A DNA stretch of 64,000 nucleotides from assembly GCA_947172415.1 (NCBI GenBank), contig OX359189.1:5842501-5906500 (forward strand), in the 5' to 3' direction. The notes under the pieces were generated by a model, which worked only from the letters and a program-made list of their open reading frames with translations, searched no databases and had not been told where the DNA came from. Shown here piece after piece: positions 18-63,688 of the stretch. The stretch comes from Chondrosia reniformis (Eukaryota; Porifera; Demospongiae; Chondrillida; Chondrillidae). Made by a program: the position numbers and the translations under genes. The first letter of the stretch is position 1. Each line of letters opens with the position of its first letter.

Positions 18-1385
18 TTCCTATTATTGAGAGTGTATCAGTTGAAGCACTCTCACTGACTATTCTATCAGTGGATGTTGTACTACTGACTGATGGAGGA
101 CAGAATGTGGATAATTATACTGTGAATGTTTGATATAATGGGTATCTTTATGTATATATCTGTATATACATACATTTACAGGTAATACTTGTTGGAGGTA
201 ACTATAGATTTGAGGAAGCCATTCCTTCATCTTCTGAACTGAGGATTGAAAATCTTATGCTTAGGATTGGACAGAAGTTTACAATTAAAGTAACTGCTAC
301 AAACATTGTTGGAGAGAGTGATCCTTTTCAATCAAACTTTACTGTGCACAACATAATAGGTAATTAAGTGATTCAAAATGTAAATAACAGGTACATATAT
401 GGTTTTAAGTCACTGTTTTATGTTTTATAACTGAAAATGTGATCGTGGTAGAAAGTGATAAATTAATAGTATATATAATAATAATACTGTTCTACTGTAT
501 GTTGTATTTGCAGTGTATGTGTAGTACTAATCATATATTATATATTATAAAGCATTAATTTATATAACTGTCTTTTTACTTGAATAACATGTCTAATAAG
601 GAACCACAGGATCTCTTGTATGAAAGTTGTACATCCATTTCCATTTTAGTTTCTGCTGTTGTATTTATATAGCCAATACTATTAAGCCAAACATGCATTT
701 CTTTGTTCTCATGCATGTAATTATAATTATAAGTCATGTCCAATTTTGCTGTATAGCTATACCTGCAACTGAAGGCTACATACCAGCTGTAGTTGCTGTA
801 GTTGGAGGAGTTATAGGAACTATTCTTTTAATTATATTCACTACCACATTCATACTGCTTATTGGACTGTATTGGAGACATAAGACTAGATCTCAAGGTT
901 TGTGATACTTTAAAGGAAAGACATTTTCTTAACCAATACAGTATACATACTTACATGTTAATTTATGTACTGTATTTGTAAAATTATGTTCATACGTATA
1001 TACTATATTCATCGCATTTATTATCATTTACCATATATTATATATTATATTTATATTATTATTATATCTAATTTTGCAATGAAGTATAGTACAAATTCAT
1101 AAATGCATACAGTAATTTTCACTATCATATATTTACTGTACTCCAATAGTTCACACAAAACAGACTAAAGAGGTGGTATATGAAGATGTAGATTCTAAAG
1201 AAGTTGACCTCCTCCAGCCCAACCCCTCTTATGTAACTGTTTCCTCTCCCTTCTCCTCATCTGGTCTGTCTGGTCAGGTGCAGGGTCCAGTGAATGAAGA
1301 GTGTGAGATGAGGGACAGAGTGGTGACTGAGGAGAACCCTGCTTATGGTGCTCTGACCAAACCCACAGAGTACAGTAACCTTTGA
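18..1385 (+). CDS. FN3-domain transmembrane receptor, 3' part (R0)
   Basis: Partial gene cut by the left window edge. Exons read 18-127, 182-359, 757-897 and 1150-1385, all with GT/AG borders and compatible phases. The first two make one fibronectin type III domain, with typical strands and a late VTATNIVGES-type segment. The third is a phase 1-1 exon with a hydrophobic membrane helix (about AVVAVVGGVIGTILLIIF) followed by a basic stop-transfer WRHK. The last exon is a cytoplasmic tail with tyrosines in VVYEDV, NPSYVTV, NPAYGAL and TEYSNL. NPxY motifs bind PTB domains or endocytic adaptors, and YxxL/V motifs can bind SH2 domains once phosphorylated. The gene ends at TGA 1383-1385. It resembles the two receptors at the right end of the window in plan and phase. 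The ligand is unknown. The exons upstream of position 18 lie outside the window. Confidence 0.82.
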
Positions 1386-42700: not shown

Positions 42701-44892
42701 GTTAGCCTACCTCACAGACAGCCAATGATTTCCTCACCACTTCCGAATCATCCCTGGGAGAAGGTTGCATCTGACCTCTCCAACTTTGAAGGAAAAAAGT
42801 ACCTGATAGTTTTTCACAATACATAGAAGTTCAGACACTTACAACCACCACCTCAGCAAGCGCTATCCGTGCTCTGAAGGCAATTTTCTCAAGGCATGGT
42901 ATTCCGACAGTTCTTATGAGTGACAGTGGTCCTCAGTACAGTTCTAAGGAGATGAAGGACTTTGCAGAAAAATACAATTTCCAACATATCACTAGTAGCC
43001 CTCACTATTCACAGAGCAATGGTTTGGCCGAAAGATTGGTCAAAACTGCAAAGAGTTTATTGGAAAAATCGGAGGACCCGTAGATGGCACTCTTGAGTTA
43101 CAGAGTGACACCTCTACCATGGTGTGGGCTCAGCCCTGCACAACTCTTAATGGGAAGACAACTGAGAACAGATGTCCCCCAAACAAAGATTACCCTAACA
43201 CCGGTTTGGCCATATCTTACAGACTTTTGCCAGAAAGACAAAGAGATAAAGAAGAAACAAAAGGCCAAACGTCACAGAGTGAGGTCAGTGCCCCCACTGT
43301 CAAATGATGAACCTGTCTGGATTCACACACAAGATAGAGAGGTTCCTGGTAGGGTGATTCAGCCAGCAGCCACTCTGAGGTCCTACCTTGTTGAGACTCC
43401 GTCAGGTACAGGTTGCCGAAACCAGAGTCATTTTGTGCCGAGACCAACAGAAAGTACACATGAGATATCAACAGATAACCAGCAGCGCCAAACTATTGCC
43501 ACACGCTCACAGACTGGAAAATACGTTGGTCCACCCTCCAGACTAACTTACTGGAAGAAGGGAGATGTGGCATACTCGTGACTGATTGTTAGGATTTAAT
43601 CGTTACTAGAAATAGTACATAGCATATACGGTAGTGTTATAACATGATAGTAACTATTGTTGTAACCATGGCTTTCTAGTTATTGTTGTTGGGTTCATGT
43701 GTGATCGTGACTGACTCTAAACCGACTCTAAAACGGAATGTCTAAATACCACATACTGAACAACTATTCCCTGTACAAGGTACTACACAACTTGACTATT
43801 CATATACGTACGTACTTACAGGTCAATCATTAATGTATGCTTACAAGTAAATATTAATTGCCGCAATCTTAAAAGGATTTATCTTGGCTAGTTCAACAGA
43901 ATACATGTATCTCTTGACATCAGTTATGTAATCCAGTAATTAGTAGATAAACTCACTTGAAATCCAAGACACTGTCCATAGAAGTATTCTCTGTCCACAT
44001 CTTCCATGATCACCATTCTGATCAACTTCTTACCTAATTCTCCACCACAGAAGAGCTCTCCTTTAGCTTCATTACCAACAATGTCATTCTACATTTCAGA
44101 CATGTGAACAGTCAACCCCACAAAGTTAATTAACATCACATAACATCACACTATTGCTGTACCTCATAAGTTTGGAAAGGCCTGTGTATGTGCAGATATG
44201 TAGGTTCAGATATACGTAACAGCTGACAATCCCCCCTCCCCCCCCAAATAACTAAAATTTAATGTTTCAACACTTATACAAATGTCATCATCAAGGAATG
44301 ATAAGCAACATGACAAATATAGGATAAACAGGGTGGTTTGTGCATAAATCAAAACTATGGTCAAATACAGGTGTACTGGTGGTACTATTATCATCTACGT
44401 AACTATTGTTAACTACATCAATAACTTCATTAAGTCTATAAGCTTGCATACCTTAATGACACAGGCAGCACAATGCAGTATTATAGCTAAGCTTTTAAAG
44501 GTGTTGGCAAAAGGCTTGATGTTTCGGTAGTGTTCCCTCAAAGTGACCAGCATGGTTCCTCTCTCCCTTGAGCATGCCTGCAGACACTTCAGCAAGCTCT
44601 TTGCGCAGCACTTAAACACTCCCAGAAGACTCCTGTAGCCGTTCCCCTTCACTCTTACCCCATATGCTGATACAAAGTCGTATTCACTAAGGTGCGCGAA
44701 TATGAACTCCTGATTCCCCTTGGCGTAGTCTAGCTGATCACCTAATTCCGAATATAGCTCGCAAAACAGAGTGTCCGTTTCATTTCTCTTCAGTCTGTGA
44801 AACTTCCTTCCAACGTCTACTTGTAGACGGAGCTCTCTGAAAAGTTTATTAAATGTGAAATCAACCTGATCTTGAGCAGTGCGATCAGCCAT
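36763..44892 (-). CDS. LIPE: Hormone-sensitive lipase
   Basis: Ten exons in transcript order: 44452-44892, 43957-44088, 40984-41082, 40664-40804, 40129-40308, 39353-39463, 38935-39153, 37931-38621, 37665-37861, 36763-36951. The sum is 2400 nt, 799 residues (human short isoform 775). It hydrolyses diacylglycerol, cholesteryl esters and other lipid esters in the cytosol and at lipid droplets. The N-terminal HSL domain shows NGYRSLLGVFKCCAKSLL and FYGQCLGFQ. The catalytic domain has the oxyanion HGGG (355-358), nucleophile Ser429 in GDSAGG, Asp742 in ELDPLLDDS and His772 in LSHGF. Exon 8 inserts a long hydrophilic loop, as in vertebrate HSL, with proline-rich PARPPPPPNK and a basic PRPRAMSVPSK whose Ser617 fits an R-x-x-S kinase site. 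The start in ACAAAATGGCTG was chosen over an upstream non-ATG extension. Intron 2 carries a gypsy element. Confidence 0.95.
37207..37244. repeat. Perfect 17-bp hairpin in LIPE intron 9
   Basis: GATGTCTTGATTTTACA and its exact inverse are separated by four bases (CCTT). No known element or RNA family recognised. It could form a stable stem in the LIPE pre-mRNA. Confidence 0.85.
40569..40664 (-). repeat. 48-bp tandem duplication at a LIPE splice donor
   Basis: Units 40569-40616 and 40617-40664 differ at only a few positions. The inner unit ends exactly on the last base of exon 4, so the intron start (GTGTGTAACTACAC) is present twice. Read through, the intron would add two similar 16-residue blocks beginning VCNYTIPKASLKG and VCNYTIPKVSLRD. 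The first donor is used in the model. Confidence 0.85.
41411..43770 (+). mobile_element. Decayed Ty3/gypsy LTR retrotransposon, 5'-truncated, in LIPE intron 2
   Basis: It lies opposite in strand to LIPE. Pieces in order: reverse-transcriptase palm with the HMDDVLIFG active-site box (about 41470-41500) and LGHIVDKHGI; connection and RNase H (IRSDASAYGMGAILLQQ, then a frame shift near 42120 before HMPGKSLYTEDTLSR); integrase zinc-binding part (NCPICAKV) and core (LMSDSGPQYSS, SNGLAERL), then a C-terminal SH3-like part. Several stops and shifts break it (for example 41803, 42120, 42826, 43081). Gag, protease and the start of RT are missing. A purine-rich tract (GAAGGGAGA, about 43557-43565) followed by TGTGGCATACTCG likely marks the start of a 3' LTR; its end was not determined. 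It is inactive. Confidence 0.88.
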
Positions 44893-45195: not shown

Positions 45196-48100
45196 TTAAC
45201 TGTACATGTCCTCTAAGTGAAGAAGAAAAACAATTATTATACATCTTCACAATTGTCCAATGTTGAAACTAAGGCATGACACACACTATAACTAACGGGA
45301 AAAGTTAGACTCTAATCCCTTTATACATACATACATACAAAATACAAGCTTTACTAAATGGACAGCATTCAATTCAGCAATATGAAAAAACATATAAGCC
45401 CATGAGTACAACTTAATGCAGTCATTCGTCATACCTCTACTGTGGCTGTTCTAAGGAAGAATTGGCAAATTATCCTAAAAGGAAGCCATTGAAAGGTAAA
45501 GCAAGTTCAAACAAATCAATTTATATAGCTTCTCACCTTTTTCCTTGCAGCTACAGCATACTCTTCTCCAGTTATAGGACCTTTCTCATGCTGAACCTGG
45601 GGTTTCCCCTTCTCAGGCATTGCATAAAGGTCACCTGTGGCAGGAGCAGCAACATGCTTAACATCCTTCTCCTTCCTTGAGCCTTTGGTGGGCTTGTCAG
45701 GTTGAGCATAGAGGTCTCCTTGCGGACCTGCTACATGACTCGGAGAAGAGGCCCCATCAGTGGTGTCTTTCTTTGGCTGTACTTTACTAGCTTCCTCTTG
45801 TTTCCTCACTTGAGCTCCAAATGCTGTCTCAGTAGCAGCATAAGAATACAAACCAGGATCGCCTCCCCCAGAGTGTGAACCACCAGTATCAGGTCCAGTT
45901 TGTGCATACAAAGCATCTGAAACCTTTAATGGCCTATCAAAACATTGATACTAGCTTGAAACATGTAATCATCATATTTTTAAATATTTCACTGCAAATA
46001 GCTACACATATGCAAACAGAAATGGACTTTCATAAAGGTGGCAAACTCTAGAGATCTAGTGATTAGGTATGGAATCATTTAATTAGATCAAAGATACTAA
46101 CTAAATGTCTCTCTCAGTAGCAGCCAAGGATCTGTCTAGGAAAGAAGAGATTTTTTTGGGGAGTGGTGGGAAATCTAGTGCTTGAAGACATATGCCCCCA
46201 GGATTTTTGGTATTTAGGCCCTCTGCAATTGATTATGATGCAATATGAGAGGTAACAGTCCTATTTACTTAAACAGTTAAATAGACCCAGGAAAGAAAGT
46301 GACAAAGAGAACTGTTGGGTGGTGACTTAGGAGCTTCTCCCTGTGTCTCTATAATAAAAAGTCATTCAGTATATGCCTACTGGTGGGCAAGAGATTTTCT
46401 CTGATATTTTGAACTCAATTGGCAACCTTTTTGGGGGGGGGAGAAGCTGAAGTGTTTGGGGAGAAGCTTCCCCCTGTCCCCACACTAGATTACCCCCTGG
46501 CAACATATGGCTAAAGACCTACTTCACACCAGACTGGTGGTAGGACAACCTTGTGTCTATATTTCATTAGACATCTTAAGTGGCCTATCAACAGAACAAG
46601 CACTACAGCTACATGTGATGGATAATGTACCTACAACCATTCAATTACAGCTATGTGGTAACATCTACATATGTGAAACTGTGTAGTGCATGCTTGTCTG
46701 TATCGTCTATAGAGTTGTAGTCCGAATGTCAATTGCTAGCTGAGGATAATCTCAGTTAATGATATATCCTTTAATTTTGTTTATTCATCTCATCAATTTG
46801 TAAGATAACAAGGGTTAATATAGGATCGTCTACTTCATCAGCTGGTAAATGCTGTTGAAAAGATTAATGTAATTAACATATTCAGAAGCTATAACTCACT
46901 TGTTTTCACGATTTGATCTTTCAGCTTCTACAGAATACATTATGCATACAATAAATTAGAGCACACCAGTCATGAAAGAATAATAGCATTAACTTTTAGG
47001 GCCTATTTCCTTACTTGGATGAGTTTTGTTGTATTTCTTGTACATATAGTAGCACAGAAGAATCAAAAGAATCACAATAGCAATGATTACCAGTATTACA
47101 ATGACTATGACTACTGGTATCCACGGAGGCACACCACCACCTCCTACTGAAGCTGATGTACCTGTGTTGAATATAGTGTACAAAAGGAATCATAATATTC
47201 ACAGTATAGTTTTCTCACCTACATAGTACTCTCCCGTACTCTCTACATAGGAATGGCCGAAAAAACATGGCCGCCTTATCTAATGTATTACCAATTAACA
47301 CCTCAGATCACCAACGAAGCAATTTTCGGTTTTATTCGGTTATTTTAAGTCAGCTATCATGATACTGGTGCGCCCAAACATAGAAGTGATGTGTATGGTT
47401 AAGTCACTTAAATTTCAGTATGCCTTATCACATGGTCACTGTCTTGTTTCGCTACTTTTTCCAGATGTGTTTGTCATTTGTTGCATGGGCCATCCCTACT
47501 TCTAATTTCATTTTTTAAAATGTTTTTATTTTGCTTTCACTGTACTGATTAAATCAAATTTGTAGAATAAGCACTAATACAAATAGCTAAATAGCCATTA
47601 GTAGAAGAAGGAAGCATGAATTGATCACTGATGTGGCAATTTGTACCAGTTGGTGGTCATAACCACCTGTCATGGGTTCAATACCTAACAATTGCTTCTT
47701 TTGTGTTTCCTTCTTCACAATGTTTATTAATGATTGTGGTTTGATTATCACTTCAATCATTCAGGTATGTACATATATGTATGCACATTTAGGTACTGTC
47801 TAACATAGTACAAACTAAACACCTACCTTTTGGTATTACTGTAACACTCTGATTAACTAAAACATCCACCTCAATATTGTTGAAGACAATTGAAGCATTG
47901 TAGTAGTATGTTGTTTCACTGCTCAAATTAGTTATTGTAATTGTAACTGTTGCACTATTTTCAGTAAAATTCCCCTGTTCAGTAGCATCATTGTCTAAGT
48001 TGATCTTGCAAAAGTAATTTGATGACAGATTTTGGCAGCTGGAGAAGCAGTTAAATATTACGTCTGGTTCCACTGCATCAGCAATAGTAACATTATCTAG

Positions 48101-51100
48101 TCCCTTGCTCACTAAAAACAAAGAGAGAAAATGCTCAGTTATAAGACTTGCTCATAGGCTTAGCCAAAACAAAGCACGTGGTTTCAGAAATTTTCCTTTC
48201 CAAAAGTAGAACTTAAGAAAGCTCATTATCACAACCTAAATTATTAAGCCTAGAAGTCGTAACTAAAATCATTCTTCAAATAAACATACCCTCTTACCAT
48301 AAACTGTAAGAGTAGTAGAATTAAAGAAGATCAGATATATAGGTAGAACTCAGTACGCCTCAAGATGTAGCATTTTTACATGCATAGGTAAATAAATTCT
48401 TAAGGCTACTCAACAAATTATAAAGCAAAATAATTCTGGTTTAGTATCTCCCTATAACTCGGAAGATTTGAAGGATCAAGCCTATTTAATAACAAAATTG
48501 ATATACGTATATGCTCATTTTTAGTTGAATGACAAAAAGTGTTATCTAACACGTAACTTCATAAGTACATAAAATTTAAAAAATCAAGTAAAATAAAGAG
48601 GATATCTGTTTTAAGGATTCATATACAGAATAAAAAGTGTACAACTTACTTACCAGTAACTAGGGCTGTATCAGATGATACAGTAACTGTTTCAGTGTAA
48701 ATAGCTGTAACTGTATAATTATATACTTCACCAGCAGAACCATTCACAATATCATATACAGTAGCAGGATTGTACTGATAAGTAAGATCATTTCCATTAA
48801 CACTAAATAGCAACTGCACAACAGGACAGCGAATATGACCTCCTGTAACCTATAAAGAAGATTATATGTATGTAATACATCAACATTATAACAGAAAATA
48901 TTGTATGATTAGTACGTACGTAAGTATAGGATTTAACTATAATTAGTGCACAATTATAAAGCATCCTAAATACTCCAAACTATTCATGGAGGCAATGTAA
49001 AATATCTGCTAAAAATCCTCAGCCATATAAAAGGTTGTCAATATTTTACCATTAGCAACAGGAGCACAATGGTCCTACATTATGCTCAGGATGTTTAGTA
49101 ACAGTGCAAGGCTGAGTAAAAATGTAGTACTTACATCAACATGCAATCCAATGGGGAATAATGAACAAGATTCTGCTTCAGTAATGTTCAAACTTCCAAC
49201 ATCTACAAACATGACAATAGGGGACTTTAAGATCTGAAGCCGTTCTTAAAGTTACAATGTCTCATTATTTGACTTTGAGTGGCTAAGGGGAGACTCTGGT
49301 TCCCGTCAAGTGAACTCCAGTTCACATAAGTTTACATAATAAAGAATGATGTAACAACAGTTTAGATGCTAAAGATGAACCTCAGCAACCAATAATTGGG
49401 ATCTAAAATAGCTCCTTCTATTATCCTACTTAGAACAGTCACCAGAACAGGAAAATATCATTAAATACACAAGACATACAGTAGAATCTCATTAACACGA
49501 AATCCAAGGGACTGCTTAGAAATTTCGTGTAAAAATATTTTGTGTTAACAGAATAATGCTTAAAGTGCAGTAATGTATACAAATAATCATATAATAATAA
49601 TATTGAAATTATTATTATCAACGCAATAAACAACCCTTATCATTTCAAATAATTATACAAGGCACAATTTTGCCACGAATATCCTTGAATCAAACAACAA
49701 AGCATCCTCTAGACTGTACACTTCTTCAAATTTAGCTGTCCAAAGACGCTTCCTTTTTGGCTCATACATTGACGTTTCAAAAGCCTCCATGATGTGGTTC
49801 CTGTTCGACAGTCTTCAGTATCTACACCTTTTCTTTAATAGTTAAAGCTTTCTGCTTAGCAGCCATAACAAAATTTCATACTGAAACACTTTGTGCACAC
49901 CATAAATCTTTCGTGCTAATGGATTTTCATGTTATTGAATTTCGTGTTAAAAGGATACTAATGTATGGGGAAGTATAGCACAAAATATAGGGACCAATTA
50001 AAACTTTGGTGTTAAGCAATTTTTCATGTTAATTGATTTAACGTTAACGAGATTCTACTTTACTTCAGTTAACAAAACAAAAGACATAAAAACTTACGGT
50101 ACATATATATATAATCAACTTACTAGTACAAGCACAAGTGGAAGAGCTGCTGCCAACACCACATTTATTGTACAGCAACACAGTTATAGTGTAATTTTTA
50201 CAAGTCTCCAATTTTTTAATGCGATAGGGTTCGTTTGCAATCCTTCCAGAACTATTACGCTGCCCTTCACTTCCAACTTCACTCCAGACTACCTCATAAT
50301 CAGTAGGTAGTATGTTACAGTTACTAACTACCCAACTGACAACAACTGAATCAACTGCTACATCTTCTATTGTAATACTTATATTACAAATGGGAGGACC
50401 TACAGGGGTTTATAAGAATGGAAACAAGTACATAAGCATGTAAATCATAACTGGGTCTATGGAGTTAAACTGATGGAATCTGGACACAATCAGGATATGT
50501 TCCAAATTTGGTTTTTAGATTTCAATACATATTACTAATCACATCATAATATGAAGTGAATAAAATAGCTAAACGATAATCATTTTTGTATTACCATAAA
50601 CCTGGGCTAGTCTTGCGGAGCCAGCCCCTTTCCTTATCCCTTCTATCTGAAGGGGAAAAGGGTCAGGAGATGAACACTTAAAAGCTACACAAAGGGGGCA
50701 TATCACCAAAAATGGCCCTATTTCATAGACTATGGTCACCTCAACACCTTCAAGCATTAGTTATGAAGAGGTATTTATGAAGAATGGTTGATGAACACTC
50801 TGAATCTCCTCAGCCTGTTGTAATGGCTAACAAAGAGTCTCACTTTCTCTCTGTTGAAGATGCAGTGAAGTAACCATCTATTGACCATGCATTTGCATCC
50901 ACTAAAAGACAAACAGTGCGAGGCTATTGAAGCCTTTACAGGAGGAATGGACACTTTGGTAGCCCTCTCAACTAGTCTCAGGGAGCCAACACATTTTCTT
51001 ATTCCTTCTATATTATAGTGACTAGATTGATTGAAACATTCTAATTATAAGTGGCAACTGTAGAATATATTGTGGATTTTTACTTCAGTAATCAGTTGAG

Positions 51101-54100
51101 TGGAAGGCAGAGGTCTATACAATAACAGTGTGCAGACTTATTGCTAGTATAACATGTAGCCGGACCACTTTGAGAGAGGGTATATTGATTGGAGTATTGA
51201 TATACAGCTTAGAGTCCTGTATCTGTTTTAATGTGATGCAATAGGCCTCTTTCATTGAGACTTGACAAGATTTTGCCACAAAGACAGTGTTAAAGGTAGA
51301 AAGTTAAGAAAGGGCAGACTGACAGTGTTGTTTGCATGTGAGAAAAACTTATATAATTAGTGATTTGTAAACTGAAAAATCCATTCAGAGGCATTGACAC
51401 TTATCAGCTGGTGTATATTGGAGAGGTAGACAGCAATTCATTGAAAACTACTGCTTTTATAAATGGCTTCAAGATGTCAACAGGACAAAAACAGAAAATA
51501 AAATTAAGCTACAAAATCTTCTATACATGGAAAATGTTGTAAGCAATAATCAGGTGGCAAGTGATACGTATGCCATTATCTAATAAGATAACACAGAGAA
51601 TGGACATCCCAGCAAGTTCATATGAGGATCTCCAAACTTTACACTAGAAACAGCAGCTTCACTAGGAGTAGAAGTTGAAATGGACTAACTGGAGTGTATG
51701 TTAATACAGAAAGGAATCTTCTGACTGAGAATCTTGATGGATGGAAAGAAGTTCTTCTTGAGGAATACAGAAGTGGCAACAATATTCTGGAAGTAGGTGA
51801 GCATGATATTCAGTGCACTCTCAATAAAGAAGAAGTCTTGGATTACATTGGCAAGGACCAATGGAAAAGTGCTACCAACACCACATTCATTATGGAGCAA
51901 GACATTTATACTATAATTTCCACAGCATATCAAATTAGCAATTTTTATTAAAATAAGCAAATAATGATCATTTCTTTATTTTAACTTTAATTAATGTCTT
52001 TATTATATCTTTATTTAATTATCACTTATCTGTGCACTGTAGGAATAAGAGTGTGTAATTTTGAAATAGCCTAGTAATCCTTAGGAGACCAAAACTAAAT
52101 GAAGTACTGTTAACAGATAATTTACTTTACACAAAACACCTCAATAAACCAGAACCTCTTTCAGCTGTAATCCAAGAGCTTCACTCATTAAGCACAATAA
52201 TAAATCAAACCTTTTTAACAACCTGCAGGTAATTATACCAAGTGTACATCAAATTAATGGACAGAACCAACTAGAGAGGTGTCACATTCAGACTTTCAGT
52301 GTTAAAAATTAAAAGTTGTGGATGTAAATGGACAGTAGTCTAACCTAGCCTGGATCACCATTCTATCTCCATTTTGCTATGATATCATTTGTCAGAATAG
52401 TAGTTTGGTACATCTATCAACAAGACCAATTCCACCCATGCAAAAAGTCTAAAATTCTACATTATAAATTGTCTCCCACAATCACCAGATGCAACCTAAA
52501 ATTAAAATGCTTTTCGTAGAGAGTGTTCAGATGTAGGGTAGCATGAACTAGCAGGAACATGCAAGCTTCTACGGGCACATACAAGTTCTAAATTGTCATT
52601 ATTATTTTTTCCTAACTAGGTGAATATCAATTGATAAAGAAAAAATACCAAGAAGAAACAAATTTTAGAAATGGACCGATTGCTGGCTATGTTTTGGCAT
52701 GTAGAACAGTGTACCTAACAGATTGCAAATAGTTGAATATAACCAACAATAGCATTGTTGCTGATTTATTAGGTGTTGATTGATAATACATTGAACAGGG
52801 CAGCCATGTTTTTCCGGTCAATTCTACTTACTGTAGAGAGACAAAATCAAGAGCAACATTCAAAATGCTCAGACTCCTAGTATAGCTACAATCAAGTTTA
52901 ATATTAAATAGTGCAAGTTTAAAACTTTAATCACTTCATTGTATAGTGTAGGTACGTACGTACGTACCATAAAATATACTCCTGGTATCAGCAATTAAAC
53001 TTGACATTGAGACGTTAATTGAGATCACCACACTTATATGTACAAGCTTACAGAATGAATATATACTGTATACTGTAGGTCCTATATTTCTTACTTAATT
53101 CCATACACACACAGCCAGTCTTTTTACAGTTAGTAACCATAACAGATTTGATGTGTACATGAATAGTAACTGAGGGGGAGTTTGGCTGTATTCAAACACA
53201 TGTAAAGCTACTGGGTTATAGAACTTGCACAAAAAGGTAAGAAAGGCCGAACCCTTAATCTAATGGAATGATATATTGTAATATATACTGTATTTATATC
53301 TTACCAAAATGGCCGACGCTTGGACACCCATTTTAACCCCTCAAATTGTTTAACACTGACTCAAGTATTGAGCTACGGTGGAAGGACAAAGTTAGGTGAC
53401 CAGCCAGCATCCAAGGCAGGCTTATGAAAAGAGATCTGGCCAGAGCAGCACTAGTACAGTAGACATCACAGGCTGTTCCTAATGTAAGCTAAAACAAAAT
53501 TCTACTCAGTATGAAGAAACTTATTTGTGAGATATCAGTTGATTAGAAAGCATCGAGAAAGTGAACTTTTTGGTGATAAGATTAAGAGTATATATAAGCT
53601 CAAAAAAGGTACTAAGTAATTTGAGTGTGGGGGGAGGCAGTAGCCCCACGAGGTTTTTACAACATCGCTACTTTCTGATTATAGTGAACAAAATTAAAAC
53701 AGTGATACCATAAACATATAAATTACAATTGGAGGAAGAAAATAAAGATTACTAAAAATGTCTATTCAACATTGGGCCATACAAGTACCACAATATACAG
53801 ACGCTTCCATTTTATTAAAAATGGAAAAATTAGATCTTCTTTCCATTTTTAACACATAAATATATATTTAGTCATAAAAATAGTCTCTGTAAATACAAAT
53901 TGTTAAGACATTGCTTACCCATACATTAAATAAGGATTCACAGTACTACATATTACCAGGTAACTCACCAACTGTTATGGTTGATAGTGTACTTCTACGT
54001 TGGCTAATTAAATCTTCACATTGAACAGTACCTCCTGTATCATCTCTAGTTAAGTTTAGAATAGTAATGTTAGATGGAGTAACTGTACGGTTTTCATCAG

Positions 54101-55655
54101 AGGTAGATATTCTTGGAAATGCCTGACTGATGGTTGTAGCAAAATTAGGAAGAACATTCACTCCACTTAAACCAGTCAATTCCCAATATAAACCATTATT
54201 TCCACTTGCAGCACAGGAGAAGGTTAATGCATCATTTTCACAGGAATGTATGGGACCACTTGGAGTTAACTGTGGAGCTATATATATACAGAAAATAAGA
54301 AACAATGTACGTATATACAAAGAATTGTAATTGTACAGCAGTGGGTAGTTGTATTGCTTTGGATAACATTGGTGATTTGTGCAGTTGGTTTATTTTACTT
54401 TCTCAAAATAGAATATACTGGAAAGTATGTATTAAACTACTGAATTGTGGAAAATTAAGGTGTAAGAACTTTGCAAATTTTACAGAAAGGAGTGCTAAAA
54501 CTACAAGGGCACTAAATGGCACTGAAGCAAATCTGTTGTAGAAGAGTACATACATGACACCTGTGAAGCTTAGTGACTCCTTAACCCAGTCTGCCCTTTA
54601 ACTAGTATTTGGGGTAAAATATCAATTAGTAATCACCGTATGTGCATATTATCGGATGCTAAATCTTCTCAACTGCTAGACAAATCCTCTTTGCAGTTGG
54701 ATACAGATTTAATAGCATGGGTAAATAAAACGTATCAAAACAGAAAGGATCCTGATCATGATCCGTTCCTCAACAAGAGACCATAAACCAGACAAATGTA
54801 AAATAACAATTTTTGGACAAAGGCCATTAATGAATGAATCTATCTATAAATCTACTATTGGATATTGATTTCGTACTTGTACCTTGCTTATGGGAAGTGA
54901 AAGACTATTATTCTTATAATTGTTTTTACATTAATCTTGAGTCTGAAGTTTTCCTGTTTTGTAAAATGAGTTTTATACCCTAAACTTTATGATATATGCC
55001 CATTCTGTTGCTAAGTCCTTTCCTGGAGTCATATGAATTATTTATATTATATTATATTATATTATTTATTTATTTATATTAGATTACCTTAGCATATTGT
55101 AACTTGTACTTGTGTATATATATCATTTTCATTGACTGTCTTTGTAAGTGAAGCAACTGAAATAGTCCTTCCCCCAATTCGGCAGATCAAGTACAGTGCT
55201 ATGTCAGCAAGACAATATTCCTATAATTAGCCAACTGGGCTTAATCTTCGCTCCACCCGAACAATAAATTTATCTCACAAAATTAAATTACCATAAGGCT
55301 GTCTATTACTAAAACACCGATTATACTACGTACGTACGTATTGACATTAAATGAGAAAACTCTCACAGGTGAATCATCGTGATGGTAATGTGTAGTGGCT
55401 ACCTTTCGACTGGTAAGGGACATGAGGCCAAAGTACACATGAACAGAAACCTACTCCTCTGTATAGGAATATACGTTATCAGTAAAATGTAAAGTGGTAC
55501 GGATCCATTTAGTGGTTTTCAGTCTAGTAAGTTTATAGGACACATATCTACCCACATACATACGTCTAGGTAATCGTTAACAACTCACCCTGTGCGATGA
55601 TATAAGAAGCTTTAAAACAGAGAATAAGGAAGAATGTCCAAACTTGTACCGCCAT
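45196..55655 (-). CDS. Ig-FN3 transmembrane receptor R1 with YxxP-type tail
   Basis: Eleven exons in transcript order: 55589-55655 (signal peptide), 53969-54277 (Ig), 50124-50399 (FN3-1), 49135-49202 plus 48654-48849 (FN3-2), 47827-48111 (FN3-3), 47015-47161 (membrane helix WIPVVIVIVILVIIAIVI), 46900-46927, 45537-45933 (main tail), 45435-45450, 45196-45212. The sum is 1806 nt, 601 residues plus stop, in frame throughout. The Ig part shows the FSCAASG and VQCEDL cysteines; FN3-1 shows YEVVWSEVGSE and NYTITVLLYN. The tail (from about residue 459) is rich in K, P and G with tyrosines in ALYAQT, LYSYAA, DLYAQP, DLYAMP, EEYAVA and the final DMYS. YxxP motifs bind Crk/Nck-type SH2 domains once phosphorylated, as in Cas-family scaffolds. 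Ectodomain introns are mainly phase 1. The ATG lies in CAAAATGGCGG. The ligand is unknown. Confidence 0.88.
47235..47310 (+). repeat. Dispersed repeat, inverse copy at 52740-52850
   Basis: GGCCGAAAAAACATGGCCGC and AATGTATTACCAATTAACAC here correspond to the minus strand of 52740-52850 (CGGAAAAACATGGCTGC, AATGTATTATCAATCAACAC). Both copies lie in R1 introns in opposite orientations; the R2 locus lacks the second. Confidence 0.6.
47630..47760 (+). repeat. tRNA-derived SINE copy in R1 intron
   Basis: Contains ACCAGTTGGTGGTCATAACC, a B-box-like GGGTTCAATACC 14 bp further on, and a non-tRNA body beginning CTTCTTTTGTGTTTCC. The body resembles the copy at 12.6 kb on the minus strand. The weak A-box and missing acceptor stem argue against a true tRNA gene. 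Confidence 0.5.
49479..50060. mobile_element. pogo/Tigger-like non-autonomous transposon
   Basis: It starts CAGTAGAATCTCATTAA and ends with the inverse (TTAACGAGATTCTACTT), flanked by TA on both sides (49477-49478 and 50061-50062). The matching place in block B (near 60030) reads GACATGTACTTCAG, an empty site with one TA. Internal TTTCGTGTTAA-type repeats face each other. Both remaining short frames are meaningless. It inserted after the R1/R2 duplication. Confidence 0.88.
51685..51960 (-). pseudogene. Dead FN3 exon, copy in block A
   Basis: On the minus strand the frame reads CCGNYSINVLLHNECGVGS, clearly the end of an FN3 exon like FN3-1 (CGNYTITVLLYNECGVGS in R2). The upstream half is lost, there is no donor at the expected place, and the frame runs into stops. 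It lies between the Ig and FN3-1 exons, so an extra FN3 domain probably existed here. Confidence 0.7.
52512..53070. repeat. About 560 bp present only in block A
   Basis: Block B joins AAAATGCT directly to GTAGGTCCTATATTTC, whereas block A has this segment between. It contains the inverse repeat copy at 52740-52850 and a stretch (about 52855-52945) sharing CAAAATGCTC and GACTCCT with 26030-26100. It was either inserted in A or deleted from B. Confidence 0.7.
54950..55125 (+). repeat. Dispersed repeat, sister of 10553-10712
   Basis: AAAATGAGTTTTATACCCTA, ATATGCCCATTCTGTTGCTA and AGATTACCTTAGCATATTGT match the 10.6-kb copy in order and strand. It is expanded internally by a TATTA microsatellite. 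It lies in R1 intron 1. Confidence 0.75.
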
Positions 55656-56333
55656 TTTGCTTTCCCATCTATACGGACTAGGCGAGTTTCCGAAGTGGGT
55701 ATGTCGGCCAGGCTGTATTGGAATATCCGTTTCACGGTCTTCCCCTTTTACCTTCAGTTTGCCTAACATGCAGTCTTGTACGATACTCCAAAGTTGTCTT
55801 CAAATCTTCCACAATGTCAAATAGGAGGTACATCTGAAGAAAAGCATAAATAATTTTCAGACTGTCCATTGCGTGAAGTAGTTGGTCTCATGCAGCACTT
55901 CTATGCATAATGTCTAGTGATATGCACATCAAAGCTTTTATAGTGTACAGTGTTTGCTCATTATACACTCTAATTTTTATCTGAAATGCCTAGGTGATGG
56001 CCTACACTTACAAGAACACATGTACATAGCAATGTACATTCTTAATGCACACTCGTGTACAAATCTACTTTGACTCACTTTATGGATATGTCTGAATCTG
56101 TTTTTTAATTGTTAACCTATCAATATATGAGAAGTATATATAGTACAATTTTAGATTCATGGCAGTTGGTAATGTCCTTCTCTTTTTCAATGCATCTTCA
56201 TTATCCCACTGTATAATGTACGTAGAGTTATTAAAAAGTACAAATAAGATATTCCGAAAAAAGCTTGTTACAGCTGATATCCATGTATCTATAATACAAA
56301 CAGTTACATGCACTTATCACACAGTTATAATAC
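55656..56333. other. Spacer between R2 3' end and R1 start
   Basis: The spacer between R1 and R2 must carry the R1 promoter and R2 3' UTR. Apart from CpGs next to the R1 ATG I see no recognisable site, gene or repeat. Confidence 0.5.
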
Positions 56334-59300
56334 TCAGTTCTCAGTATTAAGTACACCATAAGCTGGTGACTGTTGCAGTTGTACATCTTTAGACTGTTTA
56401 TTGGTAATACACTTGTCAACTACTTCATATTCAGCATTGATATCTTGTGTTGATCTTTTAGTATTCTTCTTCTTAATACAACAGAAGTATGTCAACAAAA
56501 GTATGATGACAGCTGTTGAGATAACTGACAACACTACTGATACTGTCACAGCTATTGCTATCTTTAAGTTAGCAGTTTCAGTTAAAGAGGGGCTGGGACA
56601 GGAAATTTCTAAACAAATAGAAAAAAAATAACAGTGAAATGTCACATGAATGCCTCTGGAAAACATGTGCCACTTCAACAGAGAACTAGATAATAGACAG
56701 AAGAGGAGGAAATATTACTATTTCTAAAAATAGAGAAGAAGACTGAGTGGGCAGAGAAGAATGCATGGTGTAAGTAAGATTAGATGGGTTATATGGATGT
56801 CATTGGAAATGAGGATAGCATGAGGTCAGAATTAGCTGGTGTAGGTGTGGTTGTTTAAGTGATGTTCCAGAATTCATCATAATCCATTTCAGAGGTAGAG
56901 GAGTTGCAATAAAGTAGTTAAATGAAGAAGTTAAAAAGTTAGTGAAAGTGTACTTATAGGGGCAAATGTGGTAAGATATTGCCCCTAATCACAACATGAG
57001 AACATCACACATTTATAACAGTGATTGGTATAGGTATATACATGTGTATATATTTCAAGTAAAGGGGAGAGAGCATAATAGACTACAGTAATGAAGAAAT
57101 TTGTACATTCCATAGAGTATACATAGGTACATTATACGTTTACATACGTATATACTTGCATACTTAGTACAAAAAACACTAAACACCTACCCAATGTTGT
57201 AACATTCTCATCAACTATAACATCCACTGCAACGTTGTTGAAGACAACAGAAGCATTGTAGTAGTATGTTGTTCCACTGCTCAACTTACTTATTGTAACT
57301 ATTGCACTATTTCCAACAAACTTCCTCTTTGCAGTAGCACCATTATCTAAGGTAATCTTACAAGAGTAACTTGATGAGAGTGGCCTTTGGCAGCTGGTGA
57401 TGCATTGAAATTCAATGCTTGTTTCTCTTGGGGTAGGAAGAAGATCTTCAAAACCCTTGTTTACTAAAAATGAATATTGAAAATGCTTAGTGTAAAGATC
57501 TGCCCTTTGGGTCAAACTGAAACTGTTTTTAATGATTGTAGTAAGGGAAGCCTCAGAAAGTACTGTATTCCTTTTATGACACAGTCATAATACACACAAG
57601 TTGATATACGTTTATTATAAAAATGACAGTCCATGATGATAAACTTTTGGATATAGATACACACTTTAGAGTATATAAATATAAAGTGTATTCACATATA
57701 CTACTACTGAGATGTTTAACATAATATACATATGCTGATATAAATAGTCATTTTTTGCTTATTTGACAACAATTACTTGAATGTGCTAGTTAGTAGTAAA
57801 TAATATAAGAAACGTAACTACACAAAACCTTAAATTAGTAAATCAAAAGCTGATCTTAAGGATGTGGACTCTGCCTTTGCCCCTCCAACTCATGTCTTCT
57901 GAATCTGTTAAGCAAATGTAGGTTCCAGCCGTAAGCTCCTCAGGAGACATGAGTGGGCGGGGTAAATCCAGAGTCCAACTTTATACAGAATAATAAGTAA
58001 AGTGTACAACTATGTATAAATTACTTACCAGTAACTGAGGCAGTATCAGATGATACATTAACTGTTTCAGTGTAAATAGCTGTAACCATATAATAATATA
58101 CTCCACCAGTAGAACCAGTCACAATGTCATATACAGTAGCAGGATCAGGATTGTATGGATAAGTAAGATCAGTTCCATTAACATTAAATAGCAACTCTCT
58201 CACAGGACAGCGAATATGACCCCCTGTAACCTATAAAGAAGATTATATGTAATACATAAACCTTATAATAGAAATTATTGTATAATTAGTAAGTACATGA
58301 TTTAAATACAATTAGTGTATAAAGCATCCTGAAATCTCCAAACTATTCGTGGAGGCAATTTAAATATCTGCTAAATACCCCAGACACATAAAAGATTGTC
58401 AATGTTTTACCATTGTGGTGTCCTGCACAAATGGTCCTATGCATCATGCTCAGGATATTTGGTAACTGTACAGCGGTATTGGTAATAAATGTAGTACTTA
58501 CATCAACACTCAATCCAACGGGGAATATTGAACAGAAGTCTGCTTCAGTAATGCTCAAACTTCCAACATCTACAAACATGAAAATAGGGACGTTAAAATC
58601 TGAAGCTGTTCCGAAAGCAACAATATCTCATCATTTGACTTTGAGTGGCTAAGGGGAGACTCTGGTTCCCATCAAGTGAACTTCAGTTCACGAAAGTGGT
58701 AAATCCAGAGTCAAATGATGAGACATCTATGGTACAGGTCAAAAGAAACTTGGCGATTTTTGCATTTTTCCGCTGTTGGACAATGCCACCGTCTGCAGTT
58801 GGCCACGCAGCTGTCTGAGGGTTTTTGAGAGAGCAACTGAGGAAAGCTGCAAGTGCGGAAATTTGCGTATACGTACGTACGTATACGTATGCGTACATGG
58901 TATATAATGACGATTACAATTCGTAGTCTTGACTTTCCCCAAATCACGCTAGCAGTTTTTCCAGGAGCTACAGTTCCTTCTTTGATACTGTTTCTTGTTA
59001 CATACAATCTTTTGCCAGCTGCCCTTCCTTCGATCCATTCTACCATAATTTTGCTTGCCATCTCATTCCTAATCGCTTCTTCTAATCGCAATGATTCATA
59101 ACGTCCAAATGCATGTAGGATATTACAGGATACTCATTTTATTTAATTTGCCAATCAAAACTCTACAATAAAACACTGAGGTCCGCCGAAGGAATCTGTG
59201 AAAATCCTCAGAATATAGGTGTTAATTTGCGAATCTATACAAATTCCGAGGATTTTCACAGATTCTTTCGGCGGACCTCAGTGTTTTATCGTAGAGTTTT

Positions 59301-62300
59301 GATTGGCGATTTACGTACGTACATAAATAATATGAATAATAATGATAATGAATAATACGTATGAGTTTCCAGTAATATACTATGCCATTAACTAAGTATC
59401 AAAGAGAAAGAATTGTGTCTCTCCATCTCCAAAGTAAAGGGTCAGCATCCAATATTTTAAAAATTATAGCAATTGAAAGAATCTATACAACAAAGCAAAC
59501 TGTTTTGAATACTCTTATTATTTTATTGTTGTCTACATACTTTCGTATTATTAATTCTGACGATACTTATACGTAGGTAAAGATCGAAATGCTCAACATA
59601 CGTACGTATCATTTTCTTCATAGATTGCATGGCTTCCCTATCGACACCCTACGTACATACATATTGTTCGTTTGTTTACAAACATCGCTGACGATACCCG
59701 CAGATGCTGATATGGCAAACCGCAAATGGCTGTACAGCAGTACGCAGAAAATTTGCGGATTCCCGTACAAACCCTTGCGGAAATCGCCAAGTTTCTTTTG
59801 ACCTGTACCGTACGTACAAGCATAATTGCTAATAACTTGCAGTACAATCACTAGTACTGATAAAGACTGTTCATTTAGTATATTTACATAATAGAGAATG
59901 ATGCAATAGCAGTTTAGATGCTAAATATAAACCTCAGAAACCAATAATTAGGATCTAAAATAGCTCCTTCTATTATCCTATTCGGAACAGTTATCAGAAC
60001 AGCAAAATATTATAAAATGCACAAGACATGTACTTCAGTTAAATAAACAAAAGGCCTAATTATTTAAGCAATACAGTATATATATTATCAACTTACTAGT
60101 GATAGAACTGATGGAAGAGTTGCTACCAACACCACATTCATTGTAGAGCAACACAGTTATAGTATAATTTCCACAGGTCATTAGATTATCAACAGTATAA
60201 CTGTTACTTGAAATCCTCCCAGAAGTACCAGACTGCACTTCACTTCCAACCTCACTCCAGACTACCTCATATTCAGTAGGTTGTGCAGTACAAGAAGTAA
60301 CTACCCAACTGACAGCAACTGAATCAACTGTTACAGTTCCTATTGTAATACTTACATCACAATAGGGAGGACCTACATGGGTACATGAAGAATGGAAACA
60401 AGTACATAAGCATGTAAATCATAACTAAGTCTATGGGGTTAAACTGATGGAATCTGGACACAATCAGGATCTGTTCCAAATCCTGTTTTTAGATTTCAAT
60501 ATATATTATTAATCACATTATAATAAAGAAGTGAATAAAATACGTACGTATGTAGCTAAAGGGTAATCATTTTTGTATTAAATCCCAATTTATTTGGGTT
60601 AGTCTTGCGGAGCCAGCCCCTTTCCTTATCCCTTCTATCCAAGGGGAAAAGGGTCAGGAGATGAACACATAAAAGCTGCACAAAGGGGGCATATCACCAA
60701 CATTGAGCTTAAAATGGCCCTATTTCATAGACTATGGTCATCTCAACACCTCCAGGCCTTAGTTATGATGTGATATTTATGAAGAATGGTTGATGAACAC
60801 TCTGAATCTCCTCAGCATGTTGTAATTGCTAACAAAGAGTCTCACTTTCTCTCTGTTGAAGATGCAGTGAAGTAACCATCCATTGACCATGCATTTGCAT
60901 CCACTAAAATACAAACAGTGCGAGGCTATTGAAGCCTTTACAGGAGGAAAGGACACTTTGATAGCCCTCTCAACTAGTCTCAGGAAGCCAACACATTTTC
61001 TTATTCCTTCAATATTATAGTGACTAGATTGATTGAAATATTTTAATTATACGTAAGTGGCAACTGTAGAATATATTGTGGATTTTTACTTCAGTAATCA
61101 GTTGAGTGGAAGGCAGAGGTCTATATGATAATAGTGTGTAGATTCATTGCTAGTAACATGTAACTGGACCACTTTGAGAGAGGGTATATTGATTGGAGTA
61201 TTGATATACAGCTTAGAGTCCTGTAACTGTTTCAATAGAGATGTGACAAGATTTTGTCACAAAAGACAGTTTAAGGTGGAAAGCTAGGAAAGGACAGACT
61301 GACAGCGTTATTTGCATGTGAGAAAAACGTATATAATTGTGATCAGTAAACTGAAAAATCCATTCAAAGGCATTGACACTAATCAGCTGGTGTATATTGG
61401 AGAGGCAAACAGTAATTCATGGAAATCACTGTTTTTATAAATGGCTTCAAGATGTCAACAGGAAATAAAATTAAGCTACAAAATATCTTCTATACATGGA
61501 AGATGTTGTAAGCAATAATCAGGTGGCAAGTGATGTGTCATTATCTAATAAGGTAATGCAGAGAATGGACATCCCAGCAAGTTCATATGAGGATCTCCAA
61601 ACTTTACACTAGAAACAGCAGCTTCACTAGGAGTAGAAGTTGAAATGGACTAACTGGAGTGTATGTTAATACAGAAAGGAATCTTCTGACTGAGAATCTT
61701 GATGGATGGAAAGAAGTTCTTCTTGAGGAATACAGAAGTGGCAACAATATTTCAGAAGTAGGTGAGCATGATATTCAGTGCACTCTCAATAAAGAAGAAG
61801 TCTTGGATTACATTGGCAAGGACCAATGGAAAAGTGCTACCAACACCACATTCATTATGGAGCAAGACATTTATACTATAATTTCCACAGCATATCAAAT
61901 TAGCAATTTTTATTAAAATAAGCAAATAATGATCATTTCTTTATTTTAACAATGTCTTTATTATATCTTTATTTAATTATCACTTATCTGTGCACTGTAG
62001 GAATAAGAGTGTGTAATTTTGACATAGCCTAGTAATCCTTAGGAGACCAAAACTAAATGAAGTACTGTTAACAGATAATTTACTTTACACAAAACACCTC
62101 AATAAACCGGAACCTCTTTCATTTGTAATCCAACAACTTCACTTATTAAACACAATAATAAATCAAACCTTTTTAACAACCTGCAGGTAATTATACCAAG
62201 TGTACATCAAATTAATGGACAGCGACAACTAGAGAGGTGTCACATAGCATTCAGACTTTCAGTGTTAAAAATTAAAAGTTCTGGATTTAAATGGACAGTT

Positions 62301-63688
62301 GTCTAACCTAGCCTGGATCACCATTCTGTCTTCATTTTGCTATGATATCATTTGTCAGAATAGTAGTTTGGCACATCTATCAACAAGACCAATTCCACCC
62401 ATGCACAAAGTCTAACATTATACATTATAAATTGTCACCCACAATCACCAGATGCAACCTAAAATTAAAATGCTGTAGGTCCTATATTTCTTACTTAATT
62501 CCATGCACACACAGCCAGTCTTTTTACAGTTTATAACAAATTAGATGTGTACATGAGTAGCAACCGAGGGGAAGCCATGGAAGACCATGAAGTTTGGCTG
62601 CATTCAAACACATGCAAAGCTACTGGGTTAGAGTAGTTGCACAAAAAGGTAAGAAAGGCTGAACCCTTAATCTAATGGTATGATATATTGTAATATACAC
62701 TGTATTTATATCTTACCAAAATGGCCGACGCTTGGACACCCATTTTAACCCCTCAAATTGTTTAACACTGACTCAAGTATTGAGCTACGGTGGAAGGACA
62801 AAGTTAGGTGACCAGCCAGCATCCAAGGCAGGCTTATGAAAAGAGATCTGGCCAGAGCAGCACTAGTACAGTAGACATCACAGGCTGTTCCTAATGTAAG
62901 CTAAAACAAAATTCTACTCAGTATGAAGAAACTTAGTTGTGAGATATCAGTTGATTAGAAAGCATCGAGAAAGTGAACTTTTTGGTGATAAGATTAAGAG
63001 TATATATAAGCTCAAAAAAGGTACTAAGTAATTTGAGTGTGGGGGGAGGTAGTAGCCCCACGAGGTTTTTACAACATCGCTACTTTCTGATTATAGTGAA
63101 CTAAATTAAAACAGTGATACCATAAACATATAAATTACAATTGGAGGAAGAAAATAAAGATTACTAAAAATGTCTATTCAACATTGGGCCATACAAGTAC
63201 CACAATATACAGACGCTTCCATTTTATTAAAAATGGAAAAATTAGATCTTCTTTCCATTTTTAACACATAAATATATATTTAGTCATAAAAATAGTCTCT
63301 GTAAATACAAATTGTTAAGACATTGCTTACCCATAGAGCAGATAAGGATTGCTGTACTACATACTACCAGGTAACTCACCAACTGTTATGGTTGATACAG
63401 TACTTCTACGTTGGCTAATTAAATCTTCACATTGAACAGTACCTCCTGTATCATCTCTAGTTAAGCTTAAAATAGTAATGTTAGTTGGATTATATGTACG
63501 GATTTCATCAGAGGTAGATATTCTTGGAAATGCCTGACTGATGGTTGTAGCAAAATTAGGAAGAACATTCACTCCACTTAAACCAGTCAATTCCCAATAT
63601 AAACCATTATTTCCACTTGCAGCACAGGAGAAGGTTAATGCATCATTTTCACAGGAATGTATGGGACCACTTGGAGTTAACTGTGGAG
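56334..63688 (-). CDS. Ig-FN3 transmembrane receptor R2, 5' end outside window
   Basis: Exons in transcript order: 63380-63688 (Ig), 60097-60372 (FN3-1), 58502-58569 plus 58029-58230 (FN3-2), 57191-57463 (FN3-3) and 56334-56608 (membrane helix and tail). The frame is closed from the Ig exon to TGA. The signal-peptide exon should lie near 65 kb, beyond the edge. The Ig exon has the same length as that of R1 and is nearly identical in sequence; FN3-1 has the same length but differs at roughly 40 percent of residues. The membrane helix (IAIAVTVSVVLSVISTAVII) and tail are unrelated to R1: one exon with AEYEVVDK and SPAYGVLN, the latter like NPAYGAL in R0 at the left end of the window. Probably a plasma-membrane receptor; ligand unknown. 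Confidence 0.88.
57866..57985. mobile_element. Short inverted-repeat element (MITE-like)
   Basis: GTGGACTCTGCCTTTGCCCC with CTCATGTCTTCTGA at the left mirrors TCAGGAGACATGAGTGGGCG and AATCCAGAGTCCAAC at the right; about 115 bp in total. It is in the R2 intron between FN3-2 and FN3-3. Confidence 0.7.
58618..58730. repeat. Foldback repeat, partial copy at 49256-49330
   Basis: ATCTCATCATTTGACTTTGA at the left mirrors GAGTCAAATGATGAGACAT at the right, with an inner small palindrome GTGAACTTCAGTTCAC. Block A has only the left two thirds. The Tc1-like element begins at its right end. Confidence 0.65.
58730..59810. mobile_element. Tc1/mariner-like transposon remnant with nested hairpin
   Basis: The ends are inverse copies of GGTACAGGTCAAAAGAAACT plus TGGCGAT, flanked by TA at 58728-58729 and 59811-59812. 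Block A lacks it. Inside, the + frame at 59382-59520 reads KYQRERIVSLHLQSKG then TTKQTVLNTL, like the N-terminal helix-turn-helix of Tc1-type transposases, and soon breaks. The DDE catalytic part is absent. A separate hairpin element sits at 59150-59307. Confidence 0.75.
59150..59307. mobile_element. Nested hairpin MITE, arms about 65 bp
   Basis: GCCAATCAAAACTCTACAAT at the left and ATCGTAGAGTTTTGATTGGC at the right are outer ends of arms that match with only a few changes. The arms include GAGGTCCGCCGAAGGAATCT. The loop is about 28 bp. There is no coding capacity. Confidence 0.85.
61650..61925 (-). pseudogene. Dead FN3 exon, copy in block B
   Basis: Sister of 51685-51960 with a near-identical sequence, in the same place between Ig and FN3-1. 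Because both copies are dead in the same way, the loss predates the duplication. Confidence 0.7.

Follow-up and report, generated by a model that had tools for sequence, protein, structure and literature searches.

In a 64,000-nucleotide stretch of chromosome 1 of the sponge Chondrosia reniformis (C1:5842501-5906500; hereafter the window), we found two neighboring receptor genes, R1 and R2, that are nearly identical at their putative recognition end and have nothing alike from the membrane exon onward. Sequence comparison indicates that R1 is a mosaic, in which an older lower half and a single-copy tail are joined to a recognition end that was recently homogenized with that of R2. We consider it probable that the two genes form a couple resembling paired receptors, with matched recognition and distinct outputs, and the evolutionary half of this reading is much firmer than the functional half. 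Gene models were made as six-frame readings of DNA from one assembly and one haplotype. Genome searches covered 117,379,552 bases in 15 contigs, and all counts drawn from them are lower bounds.

R1 consists of nine exons and encodes 583 amino acids (window positions 55655-45451, minus strand). R2 consists of seven exons and encodes 489 amino acids; its part inside the window lies at 63688-56334, also on the minus strand, and its first exon is at C1:5909166-5909100, about 2.6 kilobases (kb) outside the window. A separate signal peptide and one terminal stop are present in each gene, every internal junction is AG/GT, and 678 base pairs (bp) separate the R2 stop from the R1 start codon, the two genes standing in tandem (Table 1). 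Both ectodomains follow a common plan of an immunoglobulin (Ig)-like module, an FN3 module and two FN3-like modules (exons Ig, FN1, F2a, F2b and FN3-3), in the same exon order and intron context, as a first-pass annotation of this DNA had described. The annotation had also described the Ig and FN3 exons as matching, which is correct for the plan, but the likeness is graded from 94% in Ig down to 53% in FN3-3. Similarly, its assignment of phase 1 to the ectodomain and to the entry of the membrane exon applies to all module borders except F2a/F2b, which is in phase 0. Pfam placed one FN3 domain (FN1) over the cut-off in each gene. The Ig match was sub-threshold in R1, R2 gave no Ig match, and FN3-3 searched alone gave no fn3 match; the names Ig and FN3-3 therefore rest on family likeness, length and position. 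An extra 28-nucleotide R1 exon at 46899-46926 was rejected because it breaks the frame, which direct joining of the membrane exon to the tail exon keeps.

The likeness of R1 to R2 changes sharply along the ectodomain. Protein identity is 94% in Ig, 65% in FN1, 74% in F2a, 82% in F2b and 53% in FN3-3, and synonymous divergence (dS) in the same order is 0.03, 0.28, 0.07 (23 codons), 0.15 and 0.32. The signal peptide, the Ig exon and its flanking introns are nearly identical. The Ig exon carries 2.0 synonymous differences in 73.7 sites versus 15.3 in 59.2 for FN3-3 (P=1e-4), and the contrast between Ig and FN1 is also significant (P=4e-4). This is at odds with the proposal that an output module had been put onto an unchanged ectodomain in this pair. 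FN3-3 of R1 stands at dS 0.31-0.33 from the same exon of R2 and of four further relatives, R3, R4, R5 and R7, and those five are 0.05-0.20 apart. In the first four sliding windows around the Ig exon, R1 is 94.2-99.6% identical to R2 and 62-88% identical to R5; at FN1 it is 76-82% identical to both and these two are 90% identical to each other, making R1 the outlier. Since synonymous sites make the lower ectodomain of R1 much older than the Ig exon of the same gene, the recognition end is what became alike. In the simplest reading, R1 would represent an old lineage that has a lower half of its own, and a recent copying event, in one direction or the other, would have matched its recognition end to that of R2.

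The DNA similarity of the two genes ends at FN3-3, and the first-pass annotation was right that they are unrelated from the membrane exon on. The membrane and tail exons of R1 have no counterpart in R2-R7. A search of the assembly with the R1 tail (E<=0.1) returned only the tail itself and one match with E=0.011. This place, at C1:81744, was rejected as a second R1-type tail, and its frame looks like what we take to be a C2 domain. When FN3-3 and the membrane exon of R1 were searched against the assembly, the only matches apart from the query itself were the FN3-3 exons of five paralogues and three weak places, and no solved structure was found to match the R1 tail. The tail exon has a coding-like score only in its predicted frame (+0.16; other frames -0.10 to -0.47), and its GC content is 49% versus 35% in nearby introns. 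It had been described as a six-tyrosine tail of YxxP type. The six tyrosines are there (YAQT, YSYA, YAAT, YAQP, YAMP and YAVA), but only two of these sites, YAQP and YAMP, are YxxP, and five of the six tyrosines are followed by alanine; four further tyrosines lie beside the membrane. R2 has the one-exon membrane and tail with YEVV and SPAYGVL that had been reported.

R1 and R2 belong to a larger tandem array. Searching the assembly with the Ig exon (E<=0.01) gave 36 matches, of which 27 lie at C1:6.81-6.99 megabases (Mb) and one on C7. The other eight, seven of them full and one a fragment interrupted by a stop, all lie on the minus strand at C1:5.896-5.946 Mb. The R2 tail is present in R3-R7 at 69-98% identity. 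Relatives that always carry the same tail had been named as an argument against exchange, and the array taken alone comes close to this: six of its seven genes share the R2-type tail, and the sole exception is R1, the gene furthest downstream. R4 has a stop in FN1 and its tail in two frames, and the Ig fragment with a stop adjoins it (C1:5915886-5921751; L009 and L010); both appear to be decaying members of the array. R5 has two FN1 exons. The Ig-FN1 introns of R1, R2 and R5 hold FN1-like remnants (C1:5894445, 5904410 and 5931479; 57.7% over 26 amino acids), which are apparently fossil exon copies. Between F2a and FN1, R2 is also longer than R1 by about 1.2 kb (window about 58700-59890). Inverted repeats were seen there by eye, and the extra DNA is probably a mobile-element insertion.

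A second near-identical couple was found on the same chromosome (L030, C1:6814342-6818305). Here, two Ig-type receptor genes in opposite orientation (C1:6.8149-6.8182 Mb) are 98.5% identical over 1,339 bp, and their identity ends inside the membrane exon. The minus-strand gene has a tail with IEYADL and VEYALV, both of which fit the pattern of an immunoreceptor tyrosine-based inhibitory motif (ITIM), and the frame of its partner ends soon after the membrane stretch. Three weaker relatives of the ITIM-type tail lie within about 32 kb. In shuffling comparisons with YAxx/ITIM tails, the R1 tail gave P=0.0045 to one and 0.22 to the other, with 0.03, 0.05 and 0.83 for unrelated tails, and R1 was not among the four matches of a search with the L030 ITIM-type tail. 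A possible kinship between these tails is treated here as a lead only.

Mapping of the R2-type tail, as the first-pass annotation had suggested, showed it downstream of Sushi, FN3-array and other Ig/FN3 exons as well. The search (E<=0.1) gave 43 matches, the array included. In one gene (L019, C1:6764103-6767373), a membrane-tail exon at C1:6767125 that is 80% identical to that of R2 lies downstream of Sushi exons, one matched by Pfam at 7e-8 and the other just below the cut-off; by eye, the Sushi and tail borders are in phase 1. Tails that are less closely related lie behind FN3 exons on C8 and behind Ig and FN3 exons on C10 according to Pfam, and others, with ectodomains assigned by likeness only, are on C13, at C8:7.69 Mb and in an older cluster at C1:6.9 Mb. 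When 16 chosen R2-type tails were aligned, all of them had the PAY core and 15 had the YE tyrosine, the exception without the EYEVV tyrosine being the Sushi gene, where two residues are missing in frame. An R2-type membrane-tail exon is also repeated behind copies of a non-receptor-like gene at C8:465-510 kb (L020-L022), and a 196-amino-acid cysteine-containing frame with no Pfam match (L023, C8:522936-523523) lies just upstream of an R2-type tail.

Reassortment of modules is clearest in the family of R0, a plus-strand gene in which three Ig exons and two FN3 exons precede the membrane and tail exons. The genes R-1 and R-2, which lie upstream of it, have R0's FN3a exon at 83-84% identity, but a different tail. 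We scored tail type (B or C), FN3a class (p or q, where q may contain more than one type) and Ig3 (X, or not X where the Ig3 X query gave no match), assigning pairings by position with FN3a within 3.5 kb of the tail. The count used 76 of 84 FN3a matches (eight partial or broken ones were omitted), 18 of 19 tail-B rows (the second row of one C10 locus was omitted), and all 24 tail-C and all 20 Ig3-X rows. FN3a was found for 33 of 42 tail loci, the other nine having none within 3.5 kb, and all eight combinations occur among these 33 pairings. Five of the 33 have stops in the FN3a exon, including the sole tail C, q, X pairing; without them, seven of the eight combinations occur in 28 pairings. 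At the locus C1:9881766, another FN3a, of p type, lies further upstream, and a residual linkage between tail and FN3a type was detected (P=0.015). All four Ig3-by-FN3a combinations are also present among the genes read as sequence.

Synonymous sites date the modules of these genes differently. In six genes with both exons read, the tail is younger than FN3a in all eight pairs of different FN3a type (P<0.02 each), the best pair having 3.0 differences in 52.3 sites for the tail versus 26.9 in 66.5 for FN3a (P=1e-5). In pairs of the same FN3a type the tail is not younger (7/7, P>=0.24). Mean dN/dS of tail B is 0.32 over seven loci. Ig, FN3 and tail exon types have thus been reassorted in the R0 family, and mapping ectodomain-tail combinations gave the varied pairings that the first-pass annotation had asked about. 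Its view that one recognition module is joined to different outputs by phase-1 exchange is supported for a family; for R1 and R2 it is not supported in the form of a finished output added to an unaltered ectodomain. The R0 tail had also been called R2-like. A weak likeness exists (shuffle P=0.003), but the R0 tail is absent from the 43 R2-tail matches. At C12:5219147 (L033), an R0-type tail exon lies directly downstream of an Ig-like exon in an FN3-rich stretch, and no membrane exon was seen; C12:5296089 is a candidate for a further place of this kind.

Based on these observations, we predict that the common Ig-like domain of R1 and R2 binds the same or an overlapping ligand, and that binding, if both genes are expressed and their tails phosphorylated, would give two different phosphotyrosine outputs through unlike tails. 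R2 would signal via YEVV and SPAYGVL, and R1 via repeated YAxx sites, two of them YxxP. YxxP sites favor Crk or Nck-type SH2 domains, NPxY-like sites favor PTB domains, and YxxV/L sites favor SH2 domains; adaptors of these kinds are candidates for carrying distinct outcomes, possibly in immunity or self/non-self recognition. Ectopic recombination or gene conversion between neighbors would keep the recognition end alike, whereas the membrane-proximal module, the membrane exon and the tail would stay specific to each gene. Exchange of the same kind, which phase-1 borders make safe, may also reassort the exons for Ig, FN3, membrane and tail in the related receptor families of this genome. More tentatively, and at less than even odds in our judgment, paired-receptor logic kept by gene conversion could operate in this sponge as part of a combinatorial system that continually reassorts a few tail cassettes (SPAY/YExV, the NPxY-rich tail B, tail C, and YAxx or ITIM-type tails) among fast-changing ectodomains of Ig, FN3 and Sushi type.

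The Hydractinia Alr complex, like the sponge array, comprises clustered Ig-superfamily genes with tyrosine-motif tails. Paired receptors, which published accounts describe in vertebrates, have highly similar ligand-binding ectodomains encoded in the same gene cluster, a recognition end matched by conversion or recombination, overlapping expression with a shared ligand, and opposite signaling, with an ITIM on one member and a motif like the immunoreceptor tyrosine-based activation motif (ITAM) on the other (PMC5701461, PMC5112662). R1 and R2 are adjacent, and the Ig exon, the putative binding module, is similar (94% of amino acids, dS 0.03), its likeness kept within a tract that includes introns and partly involves R5. 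The pair does not have opposite ITIM/ITAM signaling and is therefore not a strict case of paired receptors; one L030 member has two ITIM-type sites. Features of shuffled families are present as well, with phase-1 borders in R1 and R2 except F2a/F2b, and with recombined modules of different ages within one gene in the R0 family. By analogy, R1 and R2 resemble paired receptors in architecture and history.

The Siglec-11/16 genes are, like R1 and R2, neighbors. Gene conversion has homogenized their upstream region and the Ig exon that binds the ligand, constraint on these exons is relaxed, and their downstream ends differ. The Siglecs differ in having inhibitory versus activating signaling, whereas R1 and R2 are without ITIM or ITAM and are built of sponge Ig and FN3-like modules. 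The CEACAM genes of Xenopus also form a cluster with a converted ligand-binding exon that has few synonymous changes, and with different tails (PMC5112662). Their pairs are in opposite orientation, like L030, whereas R1 and R2 are in tandem; their conversion is restricted to the exon and splice sites, whereas the R1/R2 tract spans introns and the promoter side; and their tails have ITIM or ITAM-type motifs, unlike those of R1 and R2 (PMC5112662). In Botryllus, fester, uncle fester and FcoR are clustered invertebrate receptors, two of which have a portion of the gene in common and lead to different outcomes, and the FcoR tails have an ITIM, a hemITAM or a core tyrosine motif (PMC12065747). The role of fester and uncle fester in fusion and rejection was shown experimentally, according to the same source, and their common part is the 3′ half (exons 6-11) with the recognition half differing, the reverse of R1 and R2 (PMC12065747). 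Literature searches over titles and abstract openings showed no sponge paired-receptor case among the open-licence papers listed. If R1/R2 and the inverted pair are matched receptors with different outputs, this logic would either predate vertebrates by far or be easy to reinvent, and the compact genome of a sponge would offer a test of the way in which recombination links a repertoire of recognition domains to a small number of signaling tails.

Several observations weigh against a functional couple. The evidence comes from the DNA of a single assembly and haplotype, the Ig assignment is weak in Pfam, and R1 and R2 differ strongly outside the Ig exon (53-82% in the other modules). A pattern scan found no canonical ITIM, ITAM or immunoreceptor tyrosine-based switch motif (ITSM) in R1 or R2, and neither has a charged membrane residue; opposite signaling signs are therefore not indicated. 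The middle of the Ig-FN1 intron is mostly 93-99% alike (about 95%) among R1, R2 and R5, so homogenization was confined neither to R1/R2 nor to coding DNA. Ig-exon dN/dS is 0.6-2.5 over 21 pairs, which relaxation fits as well as selection does. A selection test on five pairs gave uncorrected P=0.02-0.03 in two and no significance in three, and positive selection on this exon was rejected as not robust. R1 and R2 could instead be ordinary tandem paralogues with different ligands, or with R1 drifting, whose 5′ ends were homogenized by chance through concerted evolution and of which R1 kept or acquired a different tail. We regard this as rather unlikely: an ectodomain dN/dS near 1, the decay of R4 and the adjoining Ig fragment, and the mid-intron identity common to R5 would all fit, but all nine exons of R1 are intact and its tail looks coding, homogenization is strongest at the putative recognition exon, and L030 is a second near-identical pair whose ends differ.

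The phase-1 borders and the real reassortment of tails in the R0 family also speak for a swap of outputs, in which R1 would have arisen from a gene of R2 type when recombination in a phase-1 intron exchanged the membrane and tail exons. However, FN1 and FN3-3 of R1 are synonymously old relative to all paralogues, the divergence therefore does not begin at the membrane exon, and no donor of the R1 tail was found in the assembly, which together make such a swap improbable. There is very little chance that a single gene, in two haplotypes or with alternative ends, has been read as R1 and R2, or that the tail models are wrong. The models are six-frame readings from DNA, but signal peptide, splice sites and stop are separate for each gene, and the two stand in tandem with five further members in the same orientation.

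Table 1. Predicted exons of R1, R2 and R0 (positions in the window)
Feature	Position	Strand	Phase	Basis or remark
R1 exon 1, start codon and signal peptide	55589..55655	-		frame, donor GT; same protein in R2 and R3
R1 Ig-like exon	53969..54277	-	1-1	94% to R2, dS 0.03
R1 FN1 exon	50124..50399	-	1-1	Pfam fn3 3e-7, over cut-off
R1 exon F2a	49135..49202	-	1-0	paralogue match, splice frame
R1 exon F2b	48654..48849	-	0-1	paralogue match, splice frame
R1 exon FN3-3	47827..48111	-	1-1	old versus all paralogues; dS 0.31-0.33 to R2, R3, R4, R5, R7
R1 membrane exon	47015..47161	-	1-1	no counterpart in R2-R7; coding score weakly positive
R1 tail exon, six tyrosines	45537..45916	-	1-0	single copy in assembly; coding frame score
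R1 predicted last exon (DNLPILP and stop)	45451..45474	-		frame and AG acceptor only; least certain exon
R2 Ig-like exon	63380..63688	-	1-1	splice frame
R2 FN1 exon	60097..60372	-		Pfam fn3 3e-8, over cut-off
R2 exon F2a	58502..58569	-		splice frame
R2 exon F2b	58029..58230	-		splice frame
R2 exon FN3-3	57191..57463	-		97% to R3
R2 membrane and tail, one exon (YEVV, SPAYGVL)	56334..56608	-	1 in	common to R3-R7
R0 second half of FN3b	182..359	+		borders by eye
R0 membrane exon	757..897	+		borders by eye
R0 tail exon, tail B (NPSYVTV, NPAYGAL, TEYSNL)	1150..1385	+		17 other loci in assembly, one broken

Two further open frames were seen in the window. A single-exon frame on the minus strand (27226-29127) encodes a RING finger and nine TRAF-type zinc fingers, and a plus-strand frame at 43084-43581 looks like the terminal part of a retroelement integrase.

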